A stretch of DNA of 64,000 bases from assembly GCF_036250065.1 (NCBI RefSeq), contig NZ_CP109199.1, positions 4,092,001 through 4,156,000 on the forward strand. The letters are read 5' to 3'. The position numbers and the translations under genes are program-made. The notes under the pieces are model-generated. The model did not search any database and was not told the origin of the DNA. It was given only the letters and a program-made list of their open reading frames with translations. The stretch comes from Micromonospora sp. NBC_01699. Lineage in GTDB: Bacteria; Actinomycetota; Actinomycetes; Mycobacteriales; Micromonosporaceae. Of the stretch, positions 12,001-30,216 are shown in pieces. The first letter of the stretch is position 1; the number at the start of each line of letters is the position of its first letter.

Positions 12001-12181
12001 CGCCCTCGCGGATCGACTCCACGGCGCTGACCAGCAACGGGATCGCGGCCTCGACGCCGTCGGCCGCCCCGTAGTAGGCCCGGGACATGCCGAACAGCCG
12101 ATCCTCGTTGGCCCCGGGGAAGTCCTCCCCGGAGACCCACTTGAGGAAGCCGGCAAGCTGGTCCGACGCCTCGATGGCCAT
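2999..12181 (-). CDS. Giant type VII secretion substrate with CpnT-like N-terminal domain
   Basis: A 3060-residue protein. Residues 1-320 resemble the WXG100-like N-terminal domain of CpnT-type proteins: helical, then a hydrophobic stretch near residues 105-185 and a small Gly/Ala-rich segment. Residues about 325-720 are a Pro/Thr/Ser linker. Residues about 760-980 form an alpha/beta domain containing LALVSC (Cys880). A second short Thr/Pro linker follows near 985-1050. Residues about 1050-2800 are rich in beta-type alternation and contain a module that recurs near residues 1368, 1655 and 2277 (LLN or LLS, then GGV, then FDIRLVAVV-like strands). Residues about 2850-2910 are Asp-rich with DRDASP repeats. 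No known toxin domain was recognised. It follows the EspC-like 115-residue gene and is coupled to the 361-residue gene. Secretion is inferred from the N-terminus and context. Confidence 0.85.
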   Translation of the reverse strand: MAIEASDQLAGFLKWVSGEDFPGANEDRLFGMSRAYYGAADGVEAAIPLLVSAVESIREGVSGQADEAFVESMRAYVDEEPGFLAAAGLHMRKLGAKSQTSGTQVQYVKMTLIGAIILLLIEFAVALAFSFFNPGAALNWLAARVAIFRFLVRTLLGRLLMHVVMNQIIGIGLQVLLDLIVQRLQMAMGTRDHIDTSLTRQAAIAGAVGGAIATVLGPAANRIFRRFGGEVADAVVDNIPTPKPPPKSFLDALLTPAPKPTARQAVVEGAEELVVEAGTEVLAEGTVNAINGEGFKVTGAAATSGILSAGASIAGTNVGNAIRPGPDTDQNADGGADQPTKATPTDVPMPVLTPGGPPPGGPKAGSNNSGTSTDDDPDGTVDPAPPPYTATPTPVDTGAGTGPTNGPAPVDSAPTVAPVPTSNGPAPTSGGPAPSSTGSSLPGGPVPNGSSIPQGPVQTGSDPASGPLPSGPVSDGSVSGGPTPNPPVTSANGFAPTVEGGDPAGPTTVTGSANPSLSASPTTSSGATVTGTPTSATPANPSSTTAGNGVSSSTGPTPVTSSAVSSSTTAAAMNNTPASPASTTSSSTSSSTTSASTSTASTATSTTSTGTTSTGTTATSSSTPPTGAGPRTGPTPISSGAIGSSVTVPGAVGSNTTGPAAVDPTGTRPSSTNPAPIAPTRTSPATPSPDPSPSPSPSPIPNPIPIPSPIPDPEAIARHNPADPSPIAQSNPRDRRAWNRLHPRTRRRNALRLPSAVRGGPLPVTSVAKTRLTGPAQVTDLTRGADGTWYADGVPLVVRPVPGRAGVGLLSDADWELVRGRPLPEGAGAAVLVHGAGDRVRAAVRQPDGTTAEVLLDPDQVARIVAGAAPPDAPLALVSCAPTGLAGGFAQRLASARGTDVLAPSGDVVAGTGDPAADLLSVGGDPWLLFVPDGLGGEGWDVLNDDVDGPARPFDGIVAVAGPDGGPGLRLGRKPATTEQEASTSTPRTPERKKLAPWTRPGASTSTASPSIATTETPATPTETPDKRGKAPAPAPLPDISDLLGVYDRRPELLSEVDGAADIDRLVADLRQSVQAQVRARLSNRLARITYGGRPALTVDTTAIEHALRNDLQSFFATGGRTFDVRDGWRRWHSVTIAPTRLTDSQQWVDQGADKAKYDTRGDTNMALKENATASDSLALALGGAIGGRFGPGGAVSGDLAFARAAETAESSGTLTDSRNIRSGAGSHLVLASVRFSVTVDRAGRPPTSSPPAYETDAAHRQRMAAHPPPPGGPTASIAFRALDDIAKAPPAVRAVSSRRGRFDVSTLVENLFPVRIEDARIDRRDPHGNPTPTTTWNEVAEDVLRQLRPTGTVGEGGIGREQVRSLLSESSVLGQVPLALESTAHSPLVLSPSRRQAVALEMTSEVTAMEVIEDIPKSSFRWQPGVTSVGRQQHVSSVGGGGSGAFRWGFGIAYVQARLSAGFRRNTTTSVKQSSTSRTGTEFKDVKNVLARVQVRLTIDASTRVNAFQRPFRRSPRPIVVELTMLARMPRDKADQLLAGPPPADDDATGRRDKGKSRKAPDDSALDPIAEVEDGGDGTIPDPEPDPLPPPWARSGGNSVPTGMGGFREVHDRTAALVRGIGGGFLPRFRTAGAVQAMGYVSSASERQKNQSELDRVLSVPALRQNYTALLNGGVAAVLTRTKFWHTRHVVVHVTARHTRDLTYSGVEKGVAVRNFQSNSEQDGAAAGAQWRAALSVEGAFIKRFPGLEASAAVMPGGAVEGQRRWAQQGGVDTTGQESALHGGTPDSQRFDGDLELVVTVYTYKNRLGRNPRARLGLGHRAGPLTPTTAPNAAWDRNQVQVGDRLINQYTLTTSKPVSVLFANSAIPRQDLDELPVTRLDATDAADQLPLRRRTMADLSTLRDFVDRPAPQPPQPQPQPPQPVQPPQPRPAVLDWRFVEAMPGSAELMRLARETALETQQYDDGSSRRQLGGLRGDVTLVEGMPVWAELVDRFSTTQQVANLGPMTEQQWDLEPITTEADGGRLNVSVAARLTRPRLAPNLSEVTTENAPGGGVQVWGTRTTENQIQARAQFGVTGRETSNKEDRYSGGGTGSGGYQRIVYSRMTRHRKKVSGFIERNVNNRKARTRSYLVVADLRASVVAEVTNPADLPRSLLPEPFQPAGWEHHKTVTRSAVIENAVYLWVSEDEAVRLGLIGRLPNPPVPVAIAQEVRGREFVLPPGRSPGLGLQTFHQVPSLVAPAIAALRAVVAQANPHPVFARILATLTGMGLSDPMLNRRRLLNVLSRTGLPRHWAALFDGGVSLLYPETGLVSQRLFDIRLVAVVDRPPELVRFVADHNDIDVRTVGVGGGGKTVRSGRGDAVFGNVAGSAILNPEGKPAALGLGHQYGYGSLVLSSNSSESEVRTTDISSGRGVKARTRLQPRFEIRIYYRGRPVRGGVVSFQAPVTIDRWATNLRIRQAGAVARPPAEPGDPGAYQLPANQLPAPDQRTGRLRSPGWRERNGILVPPRFAPEDIDGAGVLQAAVNNMLQGVSNRLAQAGYAGAHQVHQGLTPELLLPNAGDLLDVLGLELPEVPSAAVSMKGAVVRVRLVPVAVRLAGVDAGVYREHVKQATTAGGSGTNALIQSTQAPRLLLGRGYLGDPYQALETSGAGPSTGETAAAGSGEEGGATGFGNVKPEGPSAAVAYVCQPVIEVTLPERIRVLLPARQRVDRPLDPVTVVLRMGLEDARQVLAIDDSDAVRPGMRDAFDRIVAHDRMLHATGERFVAATDAEEAARYRLQGVREPVLRDRPMTRPEASGARDEAHETWREAVEERERIEAEWWELLQTHSELLDDFEATYVAVPHHVALVADDLGDTDGDTDIDGDSDDGDGLPPIDRDASPLDRDASPTDRDASPIDRDVASTLTPSRRRDGERMTEAMVRSKAGPLPVDTGHLTRLRRDADTTLRRDAERKIVDREAIGKVLGIGGMANVIEDPAPPHPIPRFPRIRVGVGQLTDAIIRPYAGPLPGRPALMAELRDRVTAALNNGLGEQYAAQLAARIAATHGVTDQPIESLGEPA

Positions 12182-13027: not shown

Positions 13028-15439
13028 TCAGGAACGGCCGCGGGTGGTGCCCCGCGAGGGTCCGTACGGCGACCGGGGGCCGCGGGTCGGGGCCGGTTGC
13101 CGGGTCTGGTTCTCCGACTGGTCGTACTCGGAGCTGTCGTCGCGCCCGACCACGGCCGGCGCGCAGTCCGGGTCGGTGCCCCAGACCTCTTCCTCCTCGG
13201 CCAGCCAGGTGGTCCGCTCGCGTTCCTTGTTGTCCCCGTTGCCGGGACTGCCCATGCCACCCATGCCGCCCATCGGTGGCATGAACGGCATACCACCCAT
13301 ACCGCCCATCGCGCCGTTGGCACCGACACCGGGCGTGACGATCGCGCCGGGCAGGTTCTCCAGGCCGTATCCACCGGCGCTGAAGCCACCGCCGCCGGGC
13401 AGGCCGCCGCCCATCGCAAGGCCGTTGAGCGCGCCGGCGCCGGCGTACCCCGGTGGTGGGGTGCCGAGGGGCCCGACCACCGACCCGGCCGACGGGAAGT
13501 TGCCCGAGCCGAGGCTGCCCGGATCGATCTGGGAGGGAGCCTGGCCGCCCGGGTACGAGCCGCCGCCCAGGCTCGGATCGTCGAGGCCGGGAATGCCGGC
13601 CCAGCCCCCGCCGAGCCCACCGCCGGCGCCCTCCTCCGAGCCGGACCCGATCCCCGAGCCGGAACCCGAACCGGAGCCCGAGCCCGACCCCCCGGATCCC
13701 ACACCCGACCCGGAACCGAGGCCCGAGCCCAGACCGGCGCCGGGCGGCTTCTGTCCGGCGCCGGCACCGACGGAACCGCCGCCGGTGCCGCCGGTGAACG
13801 AACCGCCGCTACCCAGACCGGGAATGGTGACCCCGCCGCCGACCCCACCGCCCGCGCCACCGGAGTTCGAACCGCCGCCGATCCCACCGATCGACGTCCC
13901 GCCGCCGCCGGGATTGAGGCCACCGGGGTCGAGGCCACCGGGATTCAGGCCGCCGGAGTTCGAACCGCCGCCGATCCCACCGATCGGGTTCCCGCCGCCG
14001 AGGCCGGAGGTGTCGATCCCGCCCGTGTTGCCACCACCGCCGCCACCACCGGCGCCGAGGCCGGAGGTGTCGATGCCACCCGTGTTGCCACCGCCGCCGG
14101 TGTTCGAGCCGGACGCGAACTGGCTGCCACCGCCGCCCAGACCCGACGTGTCGATGCCACCGGTGTTGCCACCGCCGCCGTTGCCGCCGGAGCCGAGGCC
14201 CGACGTGTCGATCCCGCCCGTGTTGCCACCGCCGCCGTTGCCACCACCGCTGTTACCGCCGGAACCGAGCCCCGAGGTGTCGATCCCGCCCTCGTTACCA
14301 CCGCCGTTGTTGCCGCCGGAGTTGATGCCGAAGTTGCCGTCGCCACCGCCGGGCGGAGGCAGCTGCGACGGGTCCGGCGGCGGGACGTAGAAGGTGCCCC
14401 GGTACAGGTCGGGGATCACCCGTTGCAGCTTGTCGGTGGTGGTGGCGAAGTTGTCCATCAACGCCTTGGTGGCCGCCAACGAGGCCGCGTTCAGCGTGGC
14501 CAACTCGTTGCTCCACTGGGTCCTGGCGTCCGTGTCGAGCTGCTGCCACGCCGCCGGCTGCATCAGGTCGTACGGTCCGGGCAGCCCCTGGTCGGGGAAG
14601 CTGAAGTTCCACACCTCGTCGTACCCGCCGGTGGTGTCGCCGCCGGTGAAGAAGCCGGGGAACTTGACCGAGGCGTCGTACGCGTCGACCTGCTGCTCCA
14701 TCGACTTGACGATCTGCCCGACCAGCCAGTTCGGATCGTAGAACTCGTACGTCTTGAACGCGGTCCAGGCGTCGACCATCGCGGTCTTGAAGGTGCCGAC
14801 CGCGTCACCGCTGCCGTTGATGAACTCGATCCAGTCGTCCGGCTCGGTGATGTTCTCCTTCAGGTAGAGCATCGTCCGGTTGATGTCCTCCATGGCGAAC
14901 ATGAAGGCGTCGGCGGCCGAGCCCTCGAACCCGTTCGACTCCTGGTCGATCTCGTTGACCAATGACTGCACCCTCGGCTGGCCGGTGTTCATCAACCAGT
15001 TCGTCACCTCGTAGAACAGGTGCGCGGCGTCGTAGAGGCTCTGCGGGTCCAGGAACGGGTTGCTCAGGATCTGCGAGGTGGTCTCGTCGCTCATCGCGAC
15101 GAACATCTGGGCCTGCCGGGCCGGGCCGGTCTCGCCGCCCTCGTAGAACGAGATGAAACCACGGATGAGCTGGAAGTTCTCGATCGTGTCGGTGTTGCGC
15201 TTGCGGTAGAGGGTGATCCGGTTCCAGCCGGCGTGCGCCGGGTCGCCCGGCATCCAGTGGTCCCACGGCCGCTGGCCGGCACCCTCGGTGTTGTACTGCC
15301 TGCTCGCCGAGATCCAGTACGAGGTGTCCAGTTGGACCCACGCGGGGCTGGTGATCCGGGTGGTGTCGACGTCGTCGTCCGCACCCAGGATGTCCTTCAG
15401 CGCCGGCACCCAGTTCATTCCCGGTGATGGCTGGGTCAT
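13028..15439 (-). CDS. PPE-like type VII substrate with Gly-rich repeat region
   Basis: An 803-residue protein. Residues 1-360 are mostly helical and Trp/Tyr-rich, like the N-terminal helical part of PPE-type substrates (NWLMNTGQPRVQSLVNEIDQ near 152). Residues about 360-700 are extremely Gly/Ser/Asn-rich with five copies of GGIDTSGLG, then GGLDPGGLNPGG and Gly-Ser dipeptides. The tail near 715-775 has MGGMGGMPFMPPMGG, then ERTTWLAEEEEVWGTDP, a tail type I know from actinobacterial type VII PPE-like proteins. The start follows a GAAAGGACG ribosome site. It lies between the small ESX genes and the YbaB gene. A strong hairpin precedes it. Surface or secreted location is inferred. Confidence 0.88.
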   Translation of the reverse strand: MTQPSPGMNWVPALKDILGADDDVDTTRITSPAWVQLDTSYWISASRQYNTEGAGQRPWDHWMPGDPAHAGWNRITLYRKRNTDTIENFQLIRGFISFYEGGETGPARQAQMFVAMSDETTSQILSNPFLDPQSLYDAAHLFYEVTNWLMNTGQPRVQSLVNEIDQESNGFEGSAADAFMFAMEDINRTMLYLKENITEPDDWIEFINGSGDAVGTFKTAMVDAWTAFKTYEFYDPNWLVGQIVKSMEQQVDAYDASVKFPGFFTGGDTTGGYDEVWNFSFPDQGLPGPYDLMQPAAWQQLDTDARTQWSNELATLNAASLAATKALMDNFATTTDKLQRVIPDLYRGTFYVPPPDPSQLPPPGGGDGNFGINSGGNNGGGNEGGIDTSGLGSGGNSGGGNGGGGNTGGIDTSGLGSGGNGGGGNTGGIDTSGLGGGGSQFASGSNTGGGGNTGGIDTSGLGAGGGGGGGNTGGIDTSGLGGGNPIGGIGGGSNSGGLNPGGLDPGGLNPGGGGTSIGGIGGGSNSGGAGGGVGGGVTIPGLGSGGSFTGGTGGGSVGAGAGQKPPGAGLGSGLGSGSGVGSGGSGSGSGSGSGSGIGSGSEEGAGGGLGGGWAGIPGLDDPSLGGGSYPGGQAPSQIDPGSLGSGNFPSAGSVVGPLGTPPPGYAGAGALNGLAMGGGLPGGGGFSAGGYGLENLPGAIVTPGVGANGAMGGMGGMPFMPPMGGMGGMGSPGNGDNKERERTTWLAEEEEVWGTDPDCAPAVVGRDDSSEYDQSENQTRQPAPTRGPRSPYGPSRGTTRGRS

Positions 15440-15532: not shown

Positions 15533-15856
15533 CTAGAAGTTGGGGATCCGGCCGTTGAACTCGGCGACCGTCATCTCGTTGAGCGACTCGACGTCGTCGG
15601 TCGTGTCGACGAACCCGCGCAGTTGCTGGCCACGGGTGGTGAAGAGCAGTCCGAGCTGGTTCAGCCGCTGCTTGACGACCCCGCCCTGCGCCTTGATCGC
15701 GGCGGAGAGGTTCTGCCCCACCACGAAGTTCTGATGTCCGGGCTTGATGATCATTGCGTCGATCGGCCCGTTCGCCGCGCCGGGAGCCTCGCCCCCGAGC
15801 AGTTGGTTCTCCGCCGCGACCCGCCGCAGGAACGCCTCGTCAACACTGATCGGCAC
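15533..15856 (-). CDS. Small type VII-associated protein, 107 residues
   Basis: A 107-residue protein following the two WXG100-type genes. It has a helical start (VDEAFLRRVAAENQLL) and a C-terminal half containing VVKQRLNQLGLLF and MTVAEFNGRIPNF. It lacks a clear W-x-G turn. Size and position suggest an ESX-associated helper or a third co-secreted small protein; the family is not recognised. A strong hairpin lies just downstream. Confidence 0.78.
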   Translation of the reverse strand: MPISVDEAFLRRVAAENQLLGGEAPGAANGPIDAMIIKPGHQNFVVGQNLSAAIKAQGGVVKQRLNQLGLLFTTRGQQLRGFVDTTDDVESLNEMTVAEFNGRIPNF

Positions 15857-15937: not shown

Positions 15938-16234
15938 TCAGATCGCGCCGTCGAACAGGGCAGCGCCCTGGGTGTCCGCGACCTGGTAGGTGTCACGGAT
16001 CTGGTCGATCGCGGAGGCACCCGAGTTCAGGGCGGCGTTCATCTGGCCCATGCCCAGGTGCCAGGTGTTCTGCGCCGTCTGGTACGACGCCGCGGTGTTA
16101 CCCACGTTCGCCGTGATGAACTTGTTGACCACCTGGTCGAGGTCGGCCAGCGCCTGCTCGATCGACCGGGTCACCCCGCGCAGTTCCTCACCGCTGGCCA
16201 GCAGGCCGTCCGGGTTCAGGCCGTAGGTCGCCAT
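15938..16234 (-). CDS. WXG100-family (ESAT-6-like) protein
   Basis: A 98-residue all-helical protein with the size and pattern of ESAT-6/CFP-10 family proteins. The helix turn carries W-H-L-G (near residue 58) in place of a strict W-x-G. Helix 1 contains EQALADLDQVVNKFI, and helix 2 contains MNAALNSGASAIDQIRDTYQ. WXG100 proteins form helical heterodimers secreted by the type VII machine. Its likely partner is the gene just upstream. The shifted turn motif is a mild oddity. Confidence 0.85.
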   Translation of the reverse strand: MATYGLNPDGLLASGEELRGVTRSIEQALADLDQVVNKFITANVGNTAASYQTAQNTWHLGMGQMNAALNSGASAIDQIRDTYQVADTQGAALFDGAI

Positions 16235-16316: not shown

Positions 16317-16613
16317 TCAGCCCTGGTACCACTTCGCGTGCGCGGCCGATTCCAGTTCCGCGTTGCTGGACACCTGAAGGTGCTGGGTCATCGACGCCCG
16401 CAGCTGCTCCAGGCCGTTGCGTACCTGGGCCAGGCCACCGCGCCAGTTCTGCAACTCCTGCATGTAGCGGACCGCCGCCTCGCCGTGCCACGGCGTCGAG
16501 CCGGAAACCGCGTCGACACTGCGGTCGGCCGCGTTGCAGTCGGCCATCGCGACCTCGAAGGCGGCCAGCAACTGCCGGATGCTGGCCTCGTCTACCTCGT
16601 TCGGCTGGGTCAT
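16317..16613 (-). CDS. WXG100-family (ESAT-6-like) protein
   Basis: A 98-residue protein with the classic W-R-G turn (QNWRGGL near residue 52) between two helices. Helix 1 has IRQLLAAFEVAMADCNAADR and helix 2 has VRNGLEQLRASMTQHLQVS. The ATG at 16613 follows a GAGAGGACG ribosome site; longer frames upstream run into eccB. It is expected to pair with the next gene as the secreted heterodimer. It lies 73 bases after eccB. Confidence 0.92.
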   Translation of the reverse strand: MTQPNEVDEASIRQLLAAFEVAMADCNAADRSVDAVSGSTPWHGEAAVRYMQELQNWRGGLAQVRNGLEQLRASMTQHLQVSSNAELESAAHAKWYQG

Positions 16614-16686
16614 CACACACGTCCTCTCGTACCGTTCGGTTGGCTGTTGCTGGAATCGGTGCTGCCGGACCGGTTCTCCGTGTCGG

Positions 16687-18087
16687 TCACCCCCGCGCCC
16701 GCTGGGGGTCGAGCAGCGGCCCGGTCGGCAGCAGCTCCAGCAGTGCCGGCGACACCGTCGCCGCGACCGAGGTGGGGTAACCCAGTGCCGCCGCCACCGA
16801 GGGATCGGGCAGCGGGTACTTGATCCCCGCGTCGGTGACCACGAAGTAGCTCGTACCCGGTGCCTGGCCGGGCCGGCCGAGCCGGACCAGGCCACCGACG
16901 CCGGCCGCGACGGCGACCGCCGCGGCGCTGCGGGCGGTACGGGTCACCCCGACGCCGTCCCCGACGGTGACCGAGCCGGGCGGCAGCGGTGCTTCGGCGG
17001 TCAGGGTGACCGCCCCGCCCGCGTCGCCGTGGCGTACGCACCACACCCGACCGGTGCCGGCGGGCGCCACCGCGGGTGGTGTCTCCGGCAGGTCCCCCGG
17101 AAGCACCGCCTCCTTCGACCCGGGCAGCCCGGCCAGCGCCGCGGCGGTCAGCTCGGTCGGTACGACCGGCCGCGCCCCGTACGCCCGCGCGGTGTCCGGG
17201 TCACTGGACACCACCGCGACCCCGGTCGGGGTGAGCCGGCTCAACCCGTCCCGCTGGAGCAGGTAGTGCCGTTCGGCCGTACCGGCGATCCGGGCCACGA
17301 AGAGCTGGCCGATCCGCGTCTGCGCGCCGTCGATCACCGGGCCCGGCCCGCCCCGGCCGGGCACCGCCAGCGGTCCGATGTCCGAACCCGCCGGCAACTG
17401 GTCCAGCCAGCCCGGCTCGACCGGTGCCGGCGCGCCGTCGTAGCCGAACACCCGGGTCAGCCAGGTCTGGGTCAGCATGAACCGGCGGCCCCGCCACACC
17501 AGATAGGTCTCCCCGCCGGGTGCGCGGGCGACCACGCCCCGGTCGGGGCCGAGCGCCGGGCCGGCCGGGTTCCGGTTCACGGCCAGGGTGGTGGCCGTGG
17601 CCAGGGTGCCGGCGGCGTCCCGACCGGCCGCCGCGCAGACCGTCCAGCTCACCCCGGACAGGGCGGTCGGGCCGGGCAGCGCGTCGGGTGCGCCGACGAT
17701 GCCGACCGACTGGCCGCGCGGCACCGACCGCAACGACGCGGCGGAGACGCTGGTGACCGCCGGTTTCTTGCCGAACAGGAGCAGGGCGGAGCTGTAGTTG
17801 AGCACCGGGCGCAGCCGGCCGTCGACCAGCACGTACCGGCTGCCGGTTTCCTTCTCGACCACTACCGTGCCCGGCTTGCGCCAGCCGGTGGCGCCGCCCG
17901 GCCGCAGGAAGCCGTAGACGGCGAACCCGGCGACCACCAGCGCGGCGATCAGCGTCCCGGCGACGGTGCCGATCAGGAGCCGGCGGTGCGGGTTCTCCGC
18001 CGCCTCCGGCTCCGCCGCCACCAGCGCGGAGGTCAACCGGCCCAACACGTACGACTGGGCCTGCACCTGGTCCCGACGCGACTGCAT
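16687..18087 (-). CDS. eccB: Type VII secretion protein EccB
   Basis: A 466-residue membrane protein. It has a short cytoplasmic start (QSRRDQVQAQSYVLGRLTSA, typical of EccB), one membrane segment near residues 38-60 (LLIGTVAGTLIAALVVAGFAV), and a large external domain with EccB-type repeats (YFVVTDAGIKYPLPDP near the C-terminus). EccB is a core part of the ESX membrane complex with EccC, EccD and EccE. The gene starts five bases after eccD ends. Length matches the family. Confidence 0.95.
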   Translation of the reverse strand: MQSRRDQVQAQSYVLGRLTSALVAAEPEAAENPHRRLLIGTVAGTLIAALVVAGFAVYGFLRPGGATGWRKPGTVVVEKETGSRYVLVDGRLRPVLNYSSALLLFGKKPAVTSVSAASLRSVPRGQSVGIVGAPDALPGPTALSGVSWTVCAAAGRDAAGTLATATTLAVNRNPAGPALGPDRGVVARAPGGETYLVWRGRRFMLTQTWLTRVFGYDGAPAPVEPGWLDQLPAGSDIGPLAVPGRGGPGPVIDGAQTRIGQLFVARIAGTAERHYLLQRDGLSRLTPTGVAVVSSDPDTARAYGARPVVPTELTAAALAGLPGSKEAVLPGDLPETPPAVAPAGTGRVWCVRHGDAGGAVTLTAEAPLPPGSVTVGDGVGVTRTARSAAAVAVAAGVGGLVRLGRPGQAPGTSYFVVTDAGIKYPLPDPSVAAALGYPTSVAATVSPALLELLPTGPLLDPQRARG

Positions 18088-18092
18088 CCGCC

Positions 18093-19490
18093 TCAGCCCC
18101 CCAGCGACCGGGCGTAGCCGTAGACGTCCAGCACCGCCAGCAGGACGGGGAACATCGCCACCGTGGCCAGGGTCTGGGCCAGGTCACCCATCCGACCCCA
18201 GTACGGCATCATCCGCCGCCCCGGCATGATCCGGGCCACCACCATCAGCAGTACGGTCCCCAGCGGCACCAGCGCGACCGGCGCCAGCAGCCGGGGCCAC
18301 GGCTGCGCGTCGACCGCCGCCGCCAGGGTCACCGCGACCAGTCCGGTCACCGCCGGGGCGGCCATCGCCAGCCGGTGCCAGCCGCTGTTCATCGGCCGGG
18401 CGGCCAGCACCCGGACCAGCGCGACGAGCAGGACCAGGGTGGCCGGTGCCCAGCCGCCCGCCGAGCCGACCAGCACCAGGGCGGTCCCGACGACGATCGC
18501 CAGTCCGGCGTACAGCCCGGTCATGTAGCGGTCGGCGGCGGCGGTGCGGGCGAGCAGCGGTTCGCTCGGCTCCGGGTCGATCTCCTCCTGGAGGTGCTCC
18601 GGCTCGGTCGGCAACGGGGCCAGGCGCAGCCCGGCGAGGCGGAACGCGAGCATCGGCGCCGCCGTACCGGCCACGGTCGCCGCGACCGCGACCACCGCCG
18701 CGGCCCGATCGTCGGCCAGCGGTACGAACGCGGCCAGCGCGGCCCCACCGGCGCCGAACAGGCCGGTGGTCAGGATCCCGGCGAAGAGCGGACCGGCCCA
18801 GCCGACCAGGGCCAGGCCGATGCTGGCCGCCGCGAGTGCCGCCACCACACCGGCGAACAGTTCCGGACCGGCGACCCGGATCCCGATGCTGCCGGCGTCG
18901 AGGTCCGGCACCAGGGCGCCGGCCAGCCCGGCGTACCCGATCGCGGCGAACGCGCAGATCAGCCCGAACACCCGGTCCCCGCCGGCCCTGGTGACCGCGA
19001 ACGCGGTCACCAGGCAGGCCAGCGCGAGACCGGCGGCGGTCAGCGCCCGGGGTGTCGGCGGACCGGGCAGAACCAGCGTCGCGAGGCCGACCCCGAACAG
19101 CACGGCGAGCAGGCCGAGCGCGGCCCAGCGGATCATCTCCGGGCGCCACCGGCCGGCGCGGGACCGGACCCCGGTGGCGATGCCGTCGATCAGGTCGTCG
19201 AAGTCGACCGGCGGGATCTGCTCCGAGCGCGGCCGGAGGTGGACCACCTCACCGTCGCGCAGGCCGAGCGAGGCGACGGTGCCGTCCTCGTCGAACGGCG
19301 GCGACCCGAGCCGCTGCAACACCCAGCCGCCGTGCAGCAGGCCGGTGTCGGCCAGGTTCTCGCCGAGGTGGTGCAGCAGCGCCGGCATCAGGTCGGCGAC
19401 CAGCACCTGGGCCGGTACGGCAACCTCGACCTGCCGGTCCGGTCCACACACCACCAACCGGCACATCTCTCCACTGGCGACGATGGTCAC
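18093..19490 (-). CDS. eccD: Type VII secretion integral membrane protein EccD
   Basis: A 465-residue protein. Residues 1-90 form a ubiquitin-like (YukD-type) domain (CRLVVCGPDRQVEVAVPAQ, then DGEVVHLRP), and about eleven membrane helices follow from residue 120 on. EccD lines the membrane pore complex of ESX systems. It is the first gene of the minus-strand operon and lies 171 bases from the divergent eccC. The ATG at 19490 gives the usual N-terminus. Confidence 0.95.
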   Translation of the reverse strand: MTIVASGEMCRLVVCGPDRQVEVAVPAQVLVADLMPALLHHLGENLADTGLLHGGWVLQRLGSPPFDEDGTVASLGLRDGEVVHLRPRSEQIPPVDFDDLIDGIATGVRSRAGRWRPEMIRWAALGLLAVLFGVGLATLVLPGPPTPRALTAAGLALACLVTAFAVTRAGGDRVFGLICAFAAIGYAGLAGALVPDLDAGSIGIRVAGPELFAGVVAALAAASIGLALVGWAGPLFAGILTTGLFGAGGAALAAFVPLADDRAAAVVAVAATVAGTAAPMLAFRLAGLRLAPLPTEPEHLQEEIDPEPSEPLLARTAAADRYMTGLYAGLAIVVGTALVLVGSAGGWAPATLVLLVALVRVLAARPMNSGWHRLAMAAPAVTGLVAVTLAAAVDAQPWPRLLAPVALVPLGTVLLMVVARIMPGRRMMPYWGRMGDLAQTLATVAMFPVLLAVLDVYGYARSLGG

Positions 19491-19601: not shown

Positions 19602-19661
19602 CCGTTGTACCGCGCGCCGGCCCCGTGCGCAGGGCCCGACCCCCGGACAGGTGATTCAGCG

Positions 19662-22600
19662 GTGACCACTGTCGTGTTCCGGCGTCCGGCCCGACGCAAC
19701 GGGCCGGAGATGCCGTCCGGCGAGATCAGCCTCCAGGAACCGCCCGAACTGCCCGAGATCCAGTCCGGCGGGCTGCGCGGCGCGATGACCTTCCTGCCGA
19801 TGATGCTGATGTCCGGGGTGATGATGCTGATGTTCGTCGGCCCGTCCCGGGGCGGGCCGATGACCTGGATGATGGCCGGGCTGCTGGTCGTCGCGATGGG
19901 CGGCATGATGGTCGGCCAGATGGCGATGAGCGGCGGCGACCGCAAGCGGCGGCTCGGCGGCGACCGGCGCGACTACCTGCGCTACCTGGCCCAGAACCGG
20001 CGCCGGGTCCGGCGCTACGTGGGGCAGCAGCGCGACGCGAGCGCCTGGCGGCACCCGGAGCCGGGCACGCTCTGGTCGGTGGCGATGACGACCCGCCGGT
20101 GGGAGCGGCGCGGCACCCACCCGGACTTCCTGGAACTGCGGGTCGGCACCGGGCGGCAGCGGCTGGCGACCCGGATCGCCCCGATGCAGACCAAGCCGAT
20201 CGAGGACCTGGAACCGTTGTCGGCCAAGTCGCTGCGGCGGTTCATCAAGGCGTACAGCACGATCGAGGACCAACCGGTCGCGCTGTTCCTGCGCGGCTTC
20301 GCCCAGATCCGGATCACCGGCGCCGACGACGAACGCCGTTCGGTGCTCCGGGCCCTGGTCGCCCAGCTCGCCACCTTCCACGCCCCGGAGGAGGTGCTGA
20401 TCGCCCTCTGCCTCGGCGGTGACGGTGCCGGCGCCTGGGAGTGGGCCAAGTGGCTGCCGCACGTACAGCACCCGGTCGACCAGGACGCCGCCGGCTCGGC
20501 CCGGCTGGTCGCCGAGAACATCGAGGAGGTCGAGCGGCTGCTCGGCGAGTCCTTCTCCGCCCGCCCCCGGTACGAGCAGGGTGCCACGCCCAGCCGGGAC
20601 GAACCGTACGTGCTGGTGATCTGCGACGGTGGGCGGATCCCGACCGGCGCTCGGATGGCGTCCGGCGGGTACCGCAACGCGCTGCTGGTCGAGCTGGGCA
20701 CCGCGCCCGGCGCCACCCCGCGCGAGCTGCTCTGGCTGGACGTGGCCGACGGTCGGGTGGAGATGGTCCGGCACGACGCGGTGGGGCGGGAAACCCGCTC
20801 GCCGCTGGCGAAGGCGGACGGGTTGAGCGTGGCCAAGGCGCGCGCGGTGGCCCGGATCCTGGCGCCGTACCGGCTCAGCATCGCCACCGAGCCGGCGGCC
20901 GAGGCGCTGACCTCGGACTTCGACCTGGCCACCCTGCTCGACATCGACGACCTGAGCCGGCTGGACGTGTCCCGGATGTGGGCCACCCGGGCGCCGGCGG
21001 ACCGGCTCCGGGTGCCGATCGGCATCGACTCCGACGGGGTCCCGGTGGAGTTGGACATCAAGGAGTCGGCCCTGGGCGGGATGGGCCCGCACGGCATGCT
21101 GATCGGCGCCACCGGGTCGGGCAAGAGCGAGCTGCTGCGTACGCTGGTGCTGGCCCTGGCCACGACGCACTCCTCGGAAACGCTGAACCTGATCCTGGTC
21201 GACTTCAAGGGCGGGGCGACCTTCCTCGGGCTGGACCGGCTGCCGCACACCTCGGCCGTGATCACGAACCTGGCCGACGAGGCGGCGCTGGTCAGCCGGA
21301 TGCGCGACGCGCTGCACGGCGAGCTGGTCCGCCGGCAGGAGTTGCTGCGCCAGGCCGGCGGCTTCAGCTCCGCGCTGGACTACGAGCGGGCGCGGGCCCA
21401 GGGTGCGCCGCTCGACCCGCTGCCGACGCTGTTCGTCGTGGTGGACGAGTTCAGTGAGCTGCTCGCCGCGCACCGCGAGTTCATCGAACTGTTCGTGATG
21501 ATCGGCCGGCTGGGCCGGTCGCTGGCGGTGCACCTGCTGCTGGCCAGCCAGCGCCTGGACGACGGTCGGATCGCCCAGCTCGAATCGCACCTGTCGTACC
21601 GGATCGGCCTGCGGACCTTCTCCGCGATGGAGTCCCGGTCGGTGATCGGGGTGCCGGACGCGCACGAGCTGCCCGCCCAACCCGGCAACGGCTACCTGCG
21701 TACGCACGTGTCGACGCTGATCCGATTCAAGGCCGCGTACGTCTCCGGGGCGTACCGGCCGAAAACCGCGCGGGTACGCCAGGAGGTGGTGCAGCAGCAG
21801 GTGGTGCCGTACCTGCTGGACCACGTGCCGTACCGGGTGCCGGAGGAGGGCTCGGTGGTGCCGGACGCCCCGGACGGGGTGGAGCCGGAGGCGAACGCGG
21901 CGAGCGTGCTGGCGGTCGTGGTGGACCAGCTCACCGACCAGGGGCCGCCGGCGCACCAGGTGTGGCTACCGCCGCTGGGTGCGGCACCGACCCTGGACCA
22001 GTTGCTGCCCGCGCTCGCCCCGGACCCACAGGACGGGCTGCGGGCGCCGGACTGGCCGGGCAACGGCAGGCTGGTGGTGCCGGTCGGTTTTGTGGACAAG
22101 CCGTTCGAGCAGGTCCGGGAGCTGATGACGGTCGACCTGTCCGGGGTCGGTGGGCACCTCGGCGTGGCCGGTGGACCGCAGAGCGGCAAGAGCACCCTGT
22201 TGCGTACGGTCATCTGTGGCCTGGCGTTGACCCACAGCCCGCGCGAGGTGCAGTTCTACTGCCTCGACTTCGGCGGCGGCGCGCTGGCGTCGATCGCGGA
22301 CCTGCCGCACGTGGGCAGTGTCGCGAGCCGGCTGGACACCGACCGGGTGAGCCGTACCCTGGCCGAGATCGCCGCCCTGATCGCCGACCGGGAGCGGCGC
22401 TTCGGCACCCTCGGGGTGGACAGCATGGCGACCTACCGGCGGCGCCGGGCCGACGGCACGATCACCGACGACCCGTACGGGGACGTGTTCCTGGTGGTGG
22501 ACGGCTGGTTCACGCTGCGGCAGGAGTTCGAGGCGGGTGAGGCCGCTATCCGGCAGGTCGTCGCCCGTGGTCTGAACTTCGGCGTGCACCTGCTGCTGAC

Positions 22601-23678
22601 CACCGCCCGCTGGTCGGAGGTGCACCACGGGATGCGCGACCAGATCGGCACCCGGCTGGAGCTGCGCCTCGGTGATCCGGTGGACTCGGCGATCGACCTC
22701 CGGTTGGCGGCGACGGTGCCGCACATTCCGGGGCGGGGTCTGACCGCGCAGAAGACGCACTTCCTCGGCGGGCTGCCCCGGATCGACGGGTTGGCCGACC
22801 CGAACACGGTCGCGGACGGGGCCCGTGGGCTGTCCACGATGGTGGGCGACTTCTGGGAGGGCCCGGCCGCCCCGGCCGTCCGTACGCTGCCGGCGGTGTT
22901 GCCGGCGGCCGAGCTGCCGGCGCCCGACGGTGACCTGCGGGTGGTGTTGGGGCTGGACGAGGAGCGGATGCGGCCGGTCTGGCACAACTTCGAGGAGGTG
23001 CCGCACCTGACCGCGCTCGGTGACACCGAGAGCGGCAAGACCGCCCTGCTGCGCCACCTCGCGGCGGCGGTGACCCGACGGTTCACGCCGAAGGAGGCGC
23101 GGATCATGGTGGTCGACTTCCGCCGGCAGCTGTTCGAGTCGATCCCGCAGGAGTACCGCCTGGGTTACTCCGTCTCCCCCGACTCGACCAGGGAGGCGGT
23201 CGCGCAGGCCGTCGAGGGGCTGCGCAGCCGGGTGCCGGGCGCGGACATCACGCCGGATCGGCTGCGCCGCCGCGACTGGTGGACCGGTCCGCGCCTGTTC
23301 GTGCTGGTCGACGACTACGACCTGCTCAGCGGGCACGACAGCCCGCTGCAACCGCTGATCCCGTTCCTGCCGCAGGGCACCGACATCGGTTTCCACCTGG
23401 TGTTGACCCGAGGGGCCGCCGGGGTGATGCGGATGTCGATGGACCCGCTGATCCGGCGGTTGCAGGAGACGAACAGCCCGGACGTGGCGCTGTCCTGCCC
23501 GCCGTCGGAGGGCCCGCTGCTCGGCAACACCAAGCCGCGCATCCTGCCACCGGGCCGGGCACTGCTCTGCACCCGCCGGGGCAGCCGCCTGATCCAGACC
23601 GCGTGGGTGGAACCGCCGGCCGACCAGGGGGCGGTCAGCGTACCCGCCAGCGACGCCGCCGGCCGGCCCGGATCGTGA
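19662..23678 (+). CDS. eccC: Type VII secretion motor ATPase EccC
   Basis: A 1338-residue FtsK/SpoIIIE-type motor with two membrane helices near residues 45-100 and three ATPase domains. P-loops are GATGSGKS (482-489), GGPQSGKS (837-844) and GDTESGKT (1120-1127). Domain 1 has a full Walker B (VVVDEF near 593); domains 2 and 3 have VVDGW and LVDDY, so only domain 1 is predicted to be strongly active, as known for EccC. GTG at 19662 is preferred over the TTG at 19605 because VTTVVFRRPARR...EISLQEPPELPE is the conserved EccC start. The 3' end overlaps the convergent mycosin-like gene by 44 bases. Confidence 0.96.
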   Translation: MTTVVFRRPARRNGPEMPSGEISLQEPPELPEIQSGGLRGAMTFLPMMLMSGVMMLMFVGPSRGGPMTWMMAGLLVVAMGGMMVGQMAMSGGDRKRRLGGDRRDYLRYLAQNRRRVRRYVGQQRDASAWRHPEPGTLWSVAMTTRRWERRGTHPDFLELRVGTGRQRLATRIAPMQTKPIEDLEPLSAKSLRRFIKAYSTIEDQPVALFLRGFAQIRITGADDERRSVLRALVAQLATFHAPEEVLIALCLGGDGAGAWEWAKWLPHVQHPVDQDAAGSARLVAENIEEVERLLGESFSARPRYEQGATPSRDEPYVLVICDGGRIPTGARMASGGYRNALLVELGTAPGATPRELLWLDVADGRVEMVRHDAVGRETRSPLAKADGLSVAKARAVARILAPYRLSIATEPAAEALTSDFDLATLLDIDDLSRLDVSRMWATRAPADRLRVPIGIDSDGVPVELDIKESALGGMGPHGMLIGATGSGKSELLRTLVLALATTHSSETLNLILVDFKGGATFLGLDRLPHTSAVITNLADEAALVSRMRDALHGELVRRQELLRQAGGFSSALDYERARAQGAPLDPLPTLFVVVDEFSELLAAHREFIELFVMIGRLGRSLAVHLLLASQRLDDGRIAQLESHLSYRIGLRTFSAMESRSVIGVPDAHELPAQPGNGYLRTHVSTLIRFKAAYVSGAYRPKTARVRQEVVQQQVVPYLLDHVPYRVPEEGSVVPDAPDGVEPEANAASVLAVVVDQLTDQGPPAHQVWLPPLGAAPTLDQLLPALAPDPQDGLRAPDWPGNGRLVVPVGFVDKPFEQVRELMTVDLSGVGGHLGVAGGPQSGKSTLLRTVICGLALTHSPREVQFYCLDFGGGALASIADLPHVGSVASRLDTDRVSRTLAEIAALIADRERRFGTLGVDSMATYRRRRADGTITDDPYGDVFLVVDGWFTLRQEFEAGEAAIRQVVARGLNFGVHLLLTTARWSEVHHGMRDQIGTRLELRLGDPVDSAIDLRLAATVPHIPGRGLTAQKTHFLGGLPRIDGLADPNTVADGARGLSTMVGDFWEGPAAPAVRTLPAVLPAAELPAPDGDLRVVLGLDEERMRPVWHNFEEVPHLTALGDTESGKTALLRHLAAAVTRRFTPKEARIMVVDFRRQLFESIPQEYRLGYSVSPDSTREAVAQAVEGLRSRVPGADITPDRLRRRDWWTGPRLFVLVDDYDLLSGHDSPLQPLIPFLPQGTDIGFHLVLTRGAAGVMRMSMDPLIRRLQETNSPDVALSCPPSEGPLLGNTKPRILPPGRALLCTRRGSRLIQTAWVEPPADQGAVSVPASDAAGRPGS

Positions 23679-24846
23679 CTGCGGCGGCGAGGGCGAGCAG
23701 CGTACCGACGCCGACGGCCGCGCCGACTCCGGCGGCGCGGCCGACCGCCGGGTCCGCCGGGGGCACGACCGGCAACACCGCCGGCGCCGGTCGGGGCGCG
23801 ACCGGCCGTGCCGCCTGGCCGGGGTCGAGCACCGAAACCGCGCCGTACGGGTCGAGCACGCCCGCCCCGAGCGCCGGGGTACGCGCCACTCCGGGCGGGT
23901 GCTCGGCGGTCAGCTCCAGCCGCGCCCGGATCTCGGCGGAGGTCATCGCCGGCCGGTACGACCGGACCAGTGCCGCCGCACCCGCCACGTACGCGGCGGC
24001 CACGGCGGCGCCGCCGATCCGGTAGTGCCCGGGGCCGCTCGGCCCGACGCTGACCGCCGCCACCCCCGGTGCTACCAGGTCCACCCCGGACTTCTCCACG
24101 ACCGGCTCGGTGGGCTTGCCGTCGGCGTCGATCCCGCCGACGGCGACAACCTGCTCGAAGCCGGCCGGGTACCAGACCACCGGGGTACCGGCCTGGCTCG
24201 CCCCACGCTGGTCGCTGATCGCGGCGACCAGGACGATGTCTCGGGCCACCGCCTCGTTGACGGCGGCCCGCAGGTTGGCGTCGGCGACGTCGACCCCGGT
24301 GCCGACCAGGATCACCTCGGCTCCCAGGGCCACCGCCGCCCGGATGCCGTCGGCCAGGTACCTCGGCTGCAACCGCCCCTGGCCGTCGACTATCCGTACC
24401 GGCAGCACCGACACCGCCGGTGCCAGTCCGACGACCCCGGTGCCGGTGACCGGGCGGGCGGCCACGATCCCGGCGAGTGCGGTGCCCCGGCCCCGGCAGT
24501 CCCGGTCGGCCGGGCCGCCGGCGACCACGTCCCGACCGGGCAGCACCGCACCGGCCAGCCCGCTCGCCACGGCGCTGACCCCGGTGTCGACCACCGCCAC
24601 CGTCACGCCCGCGCCCCGGCTCAGCGGCCACACCGCCTGCGGTGCCAGCCGGGCGACCGGCCAGGGGATCCCGGCGAACGGGACCGGGGACGGCCCGACG
24701 CAACTGTTGGTCACCGTGGGCAGGGCCGGCGGCTCGTCGGCGGCGGCGTACCCGGCTCCGGCCGGCAGGCCGAGCACCAGCAGGACCGTGCAGGTCGCCG
24801 AGCCGAGCACCCGCCCGACCGGCCGCTTGCGGACACGTACCGCCAT
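23635..24846 (-). CDS. Catalytically degenerate mycosin (S8 subtilisin fold)
   Basis: A 403-residue mycosin-like protein with an N-terminal signal (VLLVLGLPAGAGYA) and a C-terminal membrane helix near 370-392. The catalytic Asp is present (VAVVDTGV, Asp87). The His site reads DCRGRGTALAG with Arg120 in place of His. The Ser site reads GAAVAAAYVAG with Ala281 in place of Ser. The oxyanion Asn region is replaced by AAISDQRG. Mycosins (MycP) stabilise ESX complexes even without protease activity in mycobacteria, so a structural role is plausible. The ATG at 24846 has a GAGGGAG site. Its end overlaps eccC on the other strand by 44 bases. Confidence 0.92.
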   Translation of the reverse strand: MAVRVRKRPVGRVLGSATCTVLLVLGLPAGAGYAAADEPPALPTVTNSCVGPSPVPFAGIPWPVARLAPQAVWPLSRGAGVTVAVVDTGVSAVASGLAGAVLPGRDVVAGGPADRDCRGRGTALAGIVAARPVTGTGVVGLAPAVSVLPVRIVDGQGRLQPRYLADGIRAAVALGAEVILVGTGVDVADANLRAAVNEAVARDIVLVAAISDQRGASQAGTPVVWYPAGFEQVVAVGGIDADGKPTEPVVEKSGVDLVAPGVAAVSVGPSGPGHYRIGGAAVAAAYVAGAAALVRSYRPAMTSAEIRARLELTAEHPPGVARTPALGAGVLDPYGAVSVLDPGQAARPVAPRPAPAVLPVVPPADPAVGRAAGVGAAVGVGTLLALAAAVTIRAGRRRRWRVR

Positions 24847-24871
24847 GACAGCTCCCTCGGGTTGTTCGGCG

Positions 24872-26419
24872 CTACTGCCGAGATCCGGGCGCACCGGACC
24901 CGACCGGCACGTCGGCGGGGGTGGGGGTGCGGTCGGCGGGGGTGGTCGGGCGGCGGGCCCGCCGGGCCAGCACCGCCGCGGCGGCGGCCAGCAGCAGCAC
25001 GAGTACGACGACAACCGCGACCCGGACCGGCCCCGGATCGCCGTCGTCGGGTGCCGCCCCGGCCGGCCGCCCCTCCTCGGGCAGTACGGCGGTGACGGCG
25101 GCGGCCGGATCCAGCACCCGCCGGCCGGTGCCGGGATCCGGTGTGCTCGCCCCGACCGGGTCGGCGGTCGTCCTGATCCGGTGGGCCACCTGCGCGGCGC
25201 TGAGGTTCGGGAAGGCGGACCGGACCAGCGCCGCCGTGCCGGCCACGTACGCGACCGCGTACGGGGTGCCAACGGCGGCGGTCGTACCCGCGCCGGGGGC
25301 GAGCAGCTGCACCGCTCCCGGACGGTAGCCGGTGGCCGGCTGTCCGTCGGCGCCCATCCCGCCGACCCGCAGCAGTGCCGTCGCCGGCTCTCTCGACGGC
25401 TCGGTCGTGGCCGCCTGGTCGTCGGTGTGCTCGGCGGCACTGGACCCGTCACCGGTGGCCGCACCGGCGACCACCACCACATCGTGGCGGAGCGCGGATT
25501 CGACCGCCGCCACCACCACCGGGTCGTCGAGCGCGACGTGGCCGCCGAGCGCGATCACGCCGGCCCCGGCCGAGATCGCCACCCGGATGCCGGTCTCGAC
25601 GTCGGTGGACCGGGCCGGCGGGGTGTCGGTGACCAGCCGGACCGGCAGCACGGTGGCCGCCGGGGCGATGCCGCCACCGCCCTCGCCGCCGCGTCCGGCG
25701 ATGATCCCGGCCATCGCGGTACCCGTACCCAGGCAGTCCACGTCGCCCCGCGCGCTGCCGGCGGTGATGTCGACGCCGACCGCCAGCCGACCGGTCAACC
25801 CGGCCCGACCGCCGTCCACGCCGGAGTCCAGCACGGCGACCATGACACCCTCGCCCTCGGTACGGGCCCACGCCGGCCCCGGATCCGGCCAACGGTCGGT
25901 ACGCGCCGGACCGGTGACCCGGTTGACGGCCGGGCACTGTCCGGCCGGGTTGCCCGCCGTGGACCCACCGACCGGCGGGGCATCCGGGGAACCGGCGGAG
26001 CCATCAGGTGCTGACCCGGTTCCCGGTCCGGGACCGGGTCCGGTGCCGAGTTGGGCGGCGGAGAGCAGGCCGTAGCGGACCCCCTCGCCGACCGCGTCCC
26101 AGGGCAGCACGATCAACCAGCCCGGAGCGAGCGGGCCGGGCCCGGTCAGGGTGCCGCCGTCGGCCTGTCGACGCCCGACGTTGAGGGCGAAGATGTCGTC
26201 GGCCCGTTGCGCCGTACCGAGGAAGCGGAACGAGATCCGCTCCAGGGTCTCCGGCTCGCCCTGGTACGACGAGGTCACCACGTAGTACTTGAGGTAGCTC
26301 TCCCCCGGTGCGACCGGGGCGGCGACTGCCGGCGCCGGCAGTGTCAACATCATCGCGACCACGAGGACCGGGAACCACCGTCGCCGGGTCGAGGACCGCC
26401 GCCGCACCGCCACCGGCAT
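24872..26419 (-). CDS. LysM-like domain fused to a catalytically degenerate mycosin
   Basis: A 515-residue protein. It has a signal peptide (VLVVAMMLTLPAPAVAAP, residues 18-35), a LysM-like segment at about 38-120 (YYVVTSSYQGEPETLERISF, then LAPGWLIVLPWD), a Gly/Pro linker, a subtilisin-type domain and a C-terminal helix near 455-478 followed by a basic tail. Asp198 is kept (VAVLDSGVD). The His site is DCLGTGTAMAG (Thr232) and the Ser site is GTPYAVAYVAG (Pro386), so the triad is broken. ATG 26419 lies only one base after GGAG; GTG 26413 is a possible alternative. It lies 25 bases before the second mycosin. Confidence 0.9.
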   Translation of the reverse strand: MPVAVRRRSSTRRRWFPVLVVAMMLTLPAPAVAAPVAPGESYLKYYVVTSSYQGEPETLERISFRFLGTAQRADDIFALNVGRRQADGGTLTGPGPLAPGWLIVLPWDAVGEGVRYGLLSAAQLGTGPGPGPGTGSAPDGSAGSPDAPPVGGSTAGNPAGQCPAVNRVTGPARTDRWPDPGPAWARTEGEGVMVAVLDSGVDGGRAGLTGRLAVGVDITAGSARGDVDCLGTGTAMAGIIAGRGGEGGGGIAPAATVLPVRLVTDTPPARSTDVETGIRVAISAGAGVIALGGHVALDDPVVVAAVESALRHDVVVVAGAATGDGSSAAEHTDDQAATTEPSREPATALLRVGGMGADGQPATGYRPGAVQLLAPGAGTTAAVGTPYAVAYVAGTAALVRSAFPNLSAAQVAHRIRTTADPVGASTPDPGTGRRVLDPAAAVTAVLPEEGRPAGAAPDDGDPGPVRVAVVVVLVLLLAAAAAVLARRARRPTTPADRTPTPADVPVGSGAPGSRQ

Positions 26420-26500: not shown

Positions 26501-27739
26501 TCAATCTCGCTCGTCGGGCGGCGGCGCGGCCACCGGATCGAGGGCCAGTAGCGACCAGCGGGCCCGGAGCACCTTCCCGACCAGCATCGGCACCGTCCGC
26601 CCGCCGCTGGCCGCCGCCATTCCCCGCGCGACCCGCAGGTCCGCGCCACGCAGTCCGCCGCTGACCACGAGGCCCGGCCCGTTCGCCGTACCCGCCGGTC
26701 CGCCCGCGTCGCCCGGTGTCTGCGGGAAGGTGTCGACCCGGCGACAGCCGTCCGGTACGTCGTCGCCGAGCACTGTGCCGACGACGGTGACGCCGAACCC
26801 CGCCGCCCGCAACTGCTCCACGATGCCGAGCGCCTGCCGGGCGCTCGCCGCCGGTGACCCGGTGATGGTCAGCACGTCCGGTGTCCGGGCCAGGTCCGCC
26901 CAGAGCCACCGGTTTTCCTGCCGACCCAGGATCACCGGCATCGTGGCGCCGGGCAACGGCTCACCGGCGGGCAACCACCCGTACGCCGGCACGTCCCCCG
27001 TCCGGCCGGCGCCGGTCAGCCGGACCTCGACCCGGTCCGCCCCCTGGCCCAGCTCCGCCCGCACCTCCCCCACCTCCGCCGGACCCGCCACCACTCCCGC
27101 CGGACCCGCCACCACCTCCGCCGGACCCGCCACCGCCTCGGCCGGGGCGGCGGCGGTGAGCGGGGTACGCCGCCGGCGGCGCAGCGCGACCAGGGCGACC
27201 GCGAGCAGCAGCACCATCAGCCCGAAGGCGCCCAGCCGGAGCAGGTAACCGGCGAAGCTGCCCCGAGAGTTGTCGGCAACCGCCCGCGGCGGCGGTACGC
27301 GGGCCGGCTCGGCCACGGCGTCCCGGGTCCGCTCCGGTACGGCCGGTGGGCTGCCCAGCCGCACGCCGGCCCCGTCGGCGTCGGGCGGCAGCAGCAGGAT
27401 CCATCCCGGCCGCAGTTCGAGCGTGTCGGTCATCCGCCCGCCGTCCGGCTGTGGCCGGTCCCGGTTCAGCTCGAAGATCTCCCGATACCGGTTGCCGTCA
27501 CCGAGGGTCTGCACCGCGATCGCGTACAGGTACTCCTTCTGTGCGCCCACCCCCGGACCGACCACGTAGTAGCGGTCGGTCGGCGAGGTCGGTTCGGTCA
27601 CCGCCCACGTCGCATGCGCGGCGGGGCCCGCCGGCTGCACCGCCGGGCCGAGCGGCACCAGCAGCACCAACCCGGTCAACGCACGCACCGTACGGACCGG
27701 TGCCGACCGTCCGCGCCACCGTTGCGCGCCACCGCCCAT
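26501..27739 (-). CDS. LysM-like domain membrane protein of the type VII locus
   Basis: A 412-residue protein. A signal-like helix (about 18-38) is followed by a segment like that of the neighbouring mycosin: RYYVVGPGVGAQKEYLYAI, then IFELNRD, then LRPGWILLLPPDADG (about residues 55-125). One membrane helix lies near 163-188 and a basic RRRRRR stop follows. A seven-residue AEVVAGP-type repeat comes next, and a cytoplasmic alpha/beta domain to the end (DVLTITGSPAASARQALGIV). ATG 27739 has a GAGGAGAGG site; the longer frame upstream is not supported. It is first in the three-gene group with the two degenerate mycosins. Confidence 0.82.
   Translation of the reverse strand: MGGGAQRWRGRSAPVRTVRALTGLVLLVPLGPAVQPAGPAAHATWAVTEPTSPTDRYYVVGPGVGAQKEYLYAIAVQTLGDGNRYREIFELNRDRPQPDGGRMTDTLELRPGWILLLPPDADGAGVRLGSPPAVPERTRDAVAEPARVPPPRAVADNSRGSFAGYLLRLGAFGLMVLLLAVALVALRRRRRTPLTAAAPAEAVAGPAEVVAGPAGVVAGPAEVGEVRAELGQGADRVEVRLTGAGRTGDVPAYGWLPAGEPLPGATMPVILGRQENRWLWADLARTPDVLTITGSPAASARQALGIVEQLRAAGFGVTVVGTVLGDDVPDGCRRVDTFPQTPGDAGGPAGTANGPGLVVSGGLRGADLRVARGMAAASGGRTVPMLVGKVLRARWSLLALDPVAAPPPDERD

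Positions 27740-30216
<2,477 letters not shown>

Follow-up and report, generated by a model that had tools for sequence, protein, structure and literature searches.

In two tandem, mycosin-like proteins, here called P1 and P2, that lie beside an ESX gene cluster, alignments show that nucleophile, general base and oxyanion Asn have all been lost. P1 is under purifying selection, and across a clade of ESX systems the replacement has become fixed. We infer that P1 and P2 are probably mycosins that no longer cut, and that P1 probably performs the proteolysis-independent role of MycP. Throughout, "the window" is the whole 64,000-nucleotide stretch of DNA that was analysed; it lies on an 8.28-Mb contig of genome G000 (C1:4092001-4156000).

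Active sites and gene neighbourhood of P1 and P2

The two genes lie on the minus strand, in the tandem order and at the location given by the preliminary description (Table 1). P1 starts at an ATG at 24846, preceded by GAGGGAG, and P2 at an ATG at 26419, preceded by AAGGAG. Matches to Pfam Peptidase_S8 (2.1e-28 for P1 and 1.6e-16 for P2) place the assignment of both sequences to the S8 fold beyond chance. The TIGR03921 mycosin model also finds both, at 2.5e-71 (240.6 bits) and 6e-43 (147.3 bits). Note that each score is below the curated cut-off of 278.75 bits.

P1 was aligned with solved subtilisins, and P2 with the same structures and MycP3. In P1, Asp87 is kept, His is replaced by Arg120, the oxyanion Asn by Asp212, and Ser by Ala281. 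In P2, Asp198 is kept, Thr232 and Pro386 take the His and Ser positions, and the oxyanion Asn is absent. The residues named in the preliminary description, and the loss of the oxyanion Asn that it claimed, are thus borne out. Hence, of the Asp-His-Ser triad and oxyanion Asn of a mycosin, only Asp survives. A relocated catalytic His or Ser in the site of either protein was looked for in the alignments and none was seen. The conserved His closest to the P1 site is H274 (GHY). We reject relocation because this residue is also present in more than half of the intact proteins, and P1 has no conserved nucleophile.

Table 1. Features of the ESX locus in the window.
Feature	Coordinates	Strand	Evidence and remarks
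Probable large substrate, 3060 aa, N-terminal WXG100_2 domain	2999..12181	minus	PF25547 2.5e-12
Gly-rich 803-aa protein, probable substrate	13028..15439	minus	NF038047 22.7 bits, below cut-off; same-place relatives in related loci
Small protein adjoining WXG100 gene	15533..15856	minus	No family match; same-place relatives in some related loci
WXG100 protein	15938..16234	minus	PF06013 40.6 bits, above cut-off; TIGR03930 40.1, below cut-off
Second small WXG100-like protein	16317..16622	minus	PF06013 24.0 bits, below cut-off 27.3
EccB	16687..18087	minus	TIGR03919 312.3 bits, above cut-off
EccD	18093..19490	minus	TIGR03920 247.7 bits, above cut-off
EccC ATPase	19605..23678	plus	TIGR03924 962 bits, TIGR03925 872 bits, both above cut-off
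P1, mycosin pseudoprotease, EccC-adjacent, 403 aa	23635..24846	minus	Signal peptide-like start; S8 domain D87/R120/D212/A281; C-terminal hydrophobic helix 374-392
P2, mycosin pseudoprotease, 515 aa	24872..26419	minus	Signal peptide-like start; LysM-like domain ~41-120; linker; S8 domain D198/T232/P386; C-terminal hydrophobic helix 467-485
LysM-like membrane protein, upstream of P2, same strand	26501..27742	minus	Start at 27742 inferred; open frame to 28159

With EccB, EccC and EccD all above curated cut-offs, the locus is a genuine ESX system. EccC is on the plus strand; EccD, EccB, the WXG100-like proteins and the probable substrates are on the minus strand, as are P1, P2 and the LysM-like membrane protein, which are convergent with EccC. 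The 3' ends of EccC and P1 overlap by 44 bases. The LysM-like membrane protein has one weak NCBIfam LysM match (E 0.0077), no Pfam match, and is akin to the N-terminal domain of P2 (47 bits). The 3060-aa protein has no Pfam match at E <= 0.1 beyond WXG100_2 and, from its sequence, is probably a giant ESX substrate. A YbaB/EbfC-family protein (PF02575; 12570-13007, minus) lies between the probable substrates on the ESX strand. No EccE was found at this locus: one sequence in the whole genome matches, and it lies at 270.9 kb, well away from the window. Some known ESX types also lack EccE.

Like MycP1, MycP3 and MycP5 (TIGR03921), P1 and P2 combine an S8 fold with a start signal and a C-terminal membrane helix, and are encoded beside EccC, EccB and EccD. 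Note that signals and helices were called from hydropathy. Unlike those mycosins, P1 and P2 lack the catalytic His, Ser and oxyanion Asn, and score below the curated cut-off; P2 carries an extra LysM-like domain and the locus has no EccE.

The structure model of P1 has a mean pLDDT of 65.8, with 20 of 25 ten-residue blocks over 81-330 at 70-96; the segment directly before Ala281 reaches only 48-50. Among the Foldseek matches listed, TM scores are 0.81-0.86 for mature subtilisins and 0.64-0.75 for MycP1 (target length). The P2 model is weak (mean 53.5; rmsd 9.9-12 against the listed matches), with MycP1 as its top matches and MycP3 within the first six. Inside this poor whole model, block pLDDT is 71-87 across 41-120, and residues 41-105 form a strand-helix-helix-strand arrangement. 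Residues 41-120 of the model may thus resemble a LysM fold. Pfam LysM gives no match at E <= 1 to this type of N-terminal domain in eight of eight members, and P2 as a classical LysM protein was rejected for want of Pfam support.

Distribution of P1, P2 and intact mycosins

The P1 query (P0001) was run against 354 genomes of the family, and 98 had a match at E <= 1e-50. Forty stretches were fetched, taking matches down to 225 bits apart from G094:C1:224580 and G078:C1:5767795. For the P2 query (P0002), 150 genomes were searched, 50 had a match at E <= 1e-30, and 40 stretches were fetched. Note that sets fetched in this way are biased toward relatives of P1 and P2. In the named collection, the ten relatives of P1 at 49-60% identity are from Micromonospora species. 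The fetched, own-genome and genus loci together gave 130 S8 matches. These comprise 37 P1 proteins with Arg (36 genomes, 8 genera), 72 LysM-type proteins (one with Gly replacing Asp), 19 intact D-H-N-S proteins, one D-Y-E-W protein and one fragment. Four of the 19 intact proteins are large subtilases rather than mycosins. P2 belongs to the LysM type, a dead subfamily with a LysM-like domain.

Against this sampling bias, we ran a census that began from EccC, using residues 1-715 alone as query in 150 genomes. A window-type EccC was present in 18 (17 at >=1069 bits; the other, G110, is a 74% identical fragment). An Arg-type P1 was found on the same contig in 16 of these and on another, short contig in one (G149); none had an intact mycosin at this locus. 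In G059, which has a window-type EccC, neither P1 nor an intact mycosin was found in the 16 kb read.

Among fetched stretches, 38 loci have a window-type EccC, defined as a summed score of at least 2000 (a limit chosen after the scores were known) with the addition of L143, L144 and L153, where EccC is truncated or split. Of these 38, 36 have within 10 kb a mycosin with no LysM-like domain. In all 36, Arg replaces the catalytic His, and the Ser position is taken by Ala, Gly or Pro. The two others, L163 and L182 (a 10-kb contig), have no mycosin in the stretch examined. Of the remaining 52 EccC loci, 33 have intact mycosins, 11 have none, and 8 have dead or broken ones (two DHAG, and one each of DHGA, DHIG, DYEW, DRIG, DRMG and a fragment). 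The LysM type is missing from the fetched stretch in 20 of the 38 window-type loci, a count that includes the two without P1. Hence, P2 is not a required partner. The tandem pair as a unit was rejected; the constant part across these loci is P1 alone.

An order-wide search of 397 genomes found 35 with a match at E <= 1e-60, of which 19 are in another family. Seventeen of the 19 matches are intact; in the other two (L183 and L184), Arg stands at the His site and Gly at the Ser site, perhaps an independent case.

The genome that contains the window also encodes three intact mycosins, with D, H, N and S kept and scores above the TIGR03921 cut-off. One adjoins another EccC, at 97-102 kb. The preliminary description had imagined a system with only dead mycosins, and called for a genome-wide search for an active one. 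That picture holds for the locus, where profiles find two S8 genes in the window and both are dead; it fails for the genome. The same is so elsewhere. Thirty of the 36 P1 genomes were searched and all 30 have a mycosin above the TIGR03921 cut-off; in 20 P1 genomes other than that of the window, with one mycosin read each, all 20 are D-H-N-S. Three window-type loci (L072, L125 and L128) have a large intact subtilase nearby which, by length, is not a mycosin but could cut. Proteolysis might, then, still be needed and be supplied in trans by the intact mycosin of another cluster, with P1 and P2 only scaffolding or recruiting it. The intact copies in the window's own genome, and in every other P1 genome read, favour this. 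Yet mycosins are held to be system-specific in mycobacteria, and we found no link between the intact copies and the P1/P2 locus; we consider supply in trans unlikely.

Selection on P1 and the number of losses

Across 37 P1 sequences (278 alignment columns), 34 positions are invariant, including Arg120 and Asp87. The Arg120 codon is CGG in 27 sequences, CGC in 7, CGA in 2 and CGT in 1. All four CGN codons are therefore used at an invariant residue, which argues for selection on Arg itself. Position 281 is Ala in 32, Gly in 4 and Pro in 1. Within the limits that we set, two columns separate P1 from the 19 intact proteins: in one, Arg120 replaces His, and in the other, Ala285 replaces Pro (36 of 37). 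The second change also occurs in 63 of the 72 LysM-type proteins.

Estimates of dN/dS for G000 against G002 (Nei-Gojobori) are 0.205 for P1, 0.324 for P2, 0.089 for EccC, 0.201 for EccD and 0.232 for EccB. Hence, P1 is similar to EccD and EccB, and both mycosin-like genes are well under 1. The WXG proteins, of about 100 codons each, give 0.24 and 0.43. Values for Micromonospora pairs (0.29-0.60) were left out because an untrimmed upstream frame was included, as was that for the LysM-like protein (0.54), whose start is uncertain.

These data bear on whether a dispensable protease is simply decaying under relaxed selection. Three observations would fit decay: P2 has evolved more quickly than P1, the His and Ser sites of the LysM type are variable, and L171, which is EccC-adjacent but outside the clade, has its gene broken into two frames. 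Conversely, the dN/dS values and the invariant Arg120 with synonymous turnover do not, and neither do the 37 P1 frames, from 36 genomes and 8 genera, that match P1 to residue 360 or further. We regard relaxed decay as very improbable. The open frames of both genes in G002, where P1 has R/A and P2 has S/P, likewise led us to reject decay and sequencing error. Note that the P1 match in G152 was listed with two internal stops; the L149 frame is full length, from start signal to helix, and hence was retained. The earlier claim that protease activity was lost by selection, rather than by decay, is well supported by the Arg codons, the full-length frames, P1 dN/dS and the clade-wide pattern.

In an EccC tree (n=89), 48 loci form a clade (support 0.95) with no intact mycosin within 6.5 kb. 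Mycosins in this clade are of Arg type at 36 loci, DYEW at one and DHIG at one. Ten loci have none, six of which group together; another of the ten, L143, has the Arg type at 7 kb. The sister branch has intact mycosins at 27 of 27 loci. Intact mycosins of that branch (for example, L105, L106, L155 and L186) are EccC-adjacent, as P1 is, and such matches are ~41-48% identical to P1; they differ from it in keeping D, H, N and S. L165 is close to the clade with Arg. Separate from that clade is a group of four (L167, L168, L169 and L171) in which Ser is lost and His is kept where readable: DHAG, DHAG, DHGA and a split gene. These EccC-adjacent mycosins have also lost the oxyanion Asn.

Trees of S8 proteins were built with 52 columns around the active site removed, and P1 and P2 were still placed inside ESX mycosins. 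In the first tree, 109 dead proteins form a clade (ultrafast bootstrap 98), with P1 at 97 and the LysM type at 100. In a larger tree of 158 sequences, 115 of 116 sampled dead mycosins group together in the midst of intact ESX mycosins (FastTree support 1.0 for the grouping), although fast evolution could draw dead proteins together. Inner nodes are weak (0.17 and 0.5) and L165 falls apart from the dead cluster. The EccC and S8 trees disagree on the number of losses, and a single loss for all dead mycosins is not upheld.

Possible roles of P1 and the LysM-type proteins

Published work in mycobacteria offers a frame for P1. In M. marinum, MycP1 is required for secretion and its protease activity is not; active-site mutants of MycP1 and MycP5 still secrete, S354A even increases secretion by ESX-1, and without MycP the ESX complex becomes unstable (PMC5082899). 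The EccB5 chamber of ESX-5 is capped by a trimer of MycP5, whose active sites face inward (PMC8131196). The proposal that the system is a purely structural variant fits this work, and is weakened by the intact mycosins that the genome still has. By analogy, P1 would be seated on EccB on the outer side of the membrane, with its C-terminal helix as an anchor. There it would cap the secretion chamber and keep the EccB ring and the EccC/EccD complex from coming apart. With Asp87 nearby, and Asp212 in many sequences, Arg120 is predicted to occupy the former active site and to form a charge network there, which would lend stability to the fold or to an interface. A strict Asp-Arg-Asp network is weakened by position 212, which is Asp in 24 of 37 sequences and Asn in L149. 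P2 would serve as an additional, optional subunit or as an adaptor, tying the cap to peptidoglycan through its LysM-like domain. Note that the architecture may differ from the mycobacterial complex, because EccE is absent.

The uniform replacements in 36 of 36 window-type mycosins, and the kept start signal and helix, speak for P1 as a cap; intact mycosins elsewhere in the genome, and the 2 of 38 loci with no mycosin in the fetched stretch, speak against it. A broader version of the same reading, which we hold tentatively, is that a separate ESX class gave up its own protease, with the His-to-Arg P1 as a non-proteolytic cap, joined in a subset by a LysM-type P2 to make a mixed, wall-anchored cap. 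If true, this natural clade of dead mycosins would be evolutionary evidence that the cutting and secretion-support roles of MycP separate, and would offer soil bacteria for studying the structural role by itself. Two positions deserve examination: that of the Arg that never changes, and that of the change from Pro to Ala, which P1 and the LysM type have in common. Among open papers, we found no experiment on P1 or P2, and no published account of mycosin pseudoproteases, or of LysM-bearing mycosins, near EccC; one may exist elsewhere. Passages on the Micromonospora lupini genome describe a cluster with two mycP copies and do not discuss their active sites (PMC4182475).

At the Ser site, the 72 LysM-type proteins have Q (25), E (17), D (12), R (6), H (5), P (4), A (2) or G (1). 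Such variety might be expected of a binding pocket and, with the tandem arrangement on one strand, it raises the idea that P1 and P2 are regulatory pseudoproteases, which bind substrate peptides or an active protease to gate or signal. CspC and CspA offer an analogy, though they are soluble spore proteins and, unlike P1 and P2, have neither a secretion system nor a membrane anchor. They set a precedent for regulation by subtilisin-like pseudoproteases in Clostridioides difficile germination: the subtilisin fold is kept after catalysis is lost, and two pseudoproteases act together (PMC6636752, PMC12880746). However, P1 occurs without P2 in 20 of 38 loci (counting the two without P1), and retains the mycosin's place beside EccC, its start signal and its anchor. 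A regulatory function of this kind seems improbable.

The LysM type also includes a D-H-x-D class, with Asp and His kept and Asp at the Ser site (L071, L077, L082, L087, L090, L098, L099, L137, L139 and L141). Together with the invariant Asp87 of P1, this could be taken to mean that the remaining Asp and new residues support some other catalytic chemistry. We find this scarcely credible, since the Ser site holds A, G or P in P1 and eight different residues in the LysM type, and neither has a conserved nucleophile.

The D-H-x-D type adjoins EccC in L090, L137, L139 and L141, alongside P1 and a D-T-T-E type. Many fetched stretches show no EccC. A genome often has several LysM-type mycosins or relatives of them; G048, for instance, has eight matches to the P2 query at E <= 1e-30.
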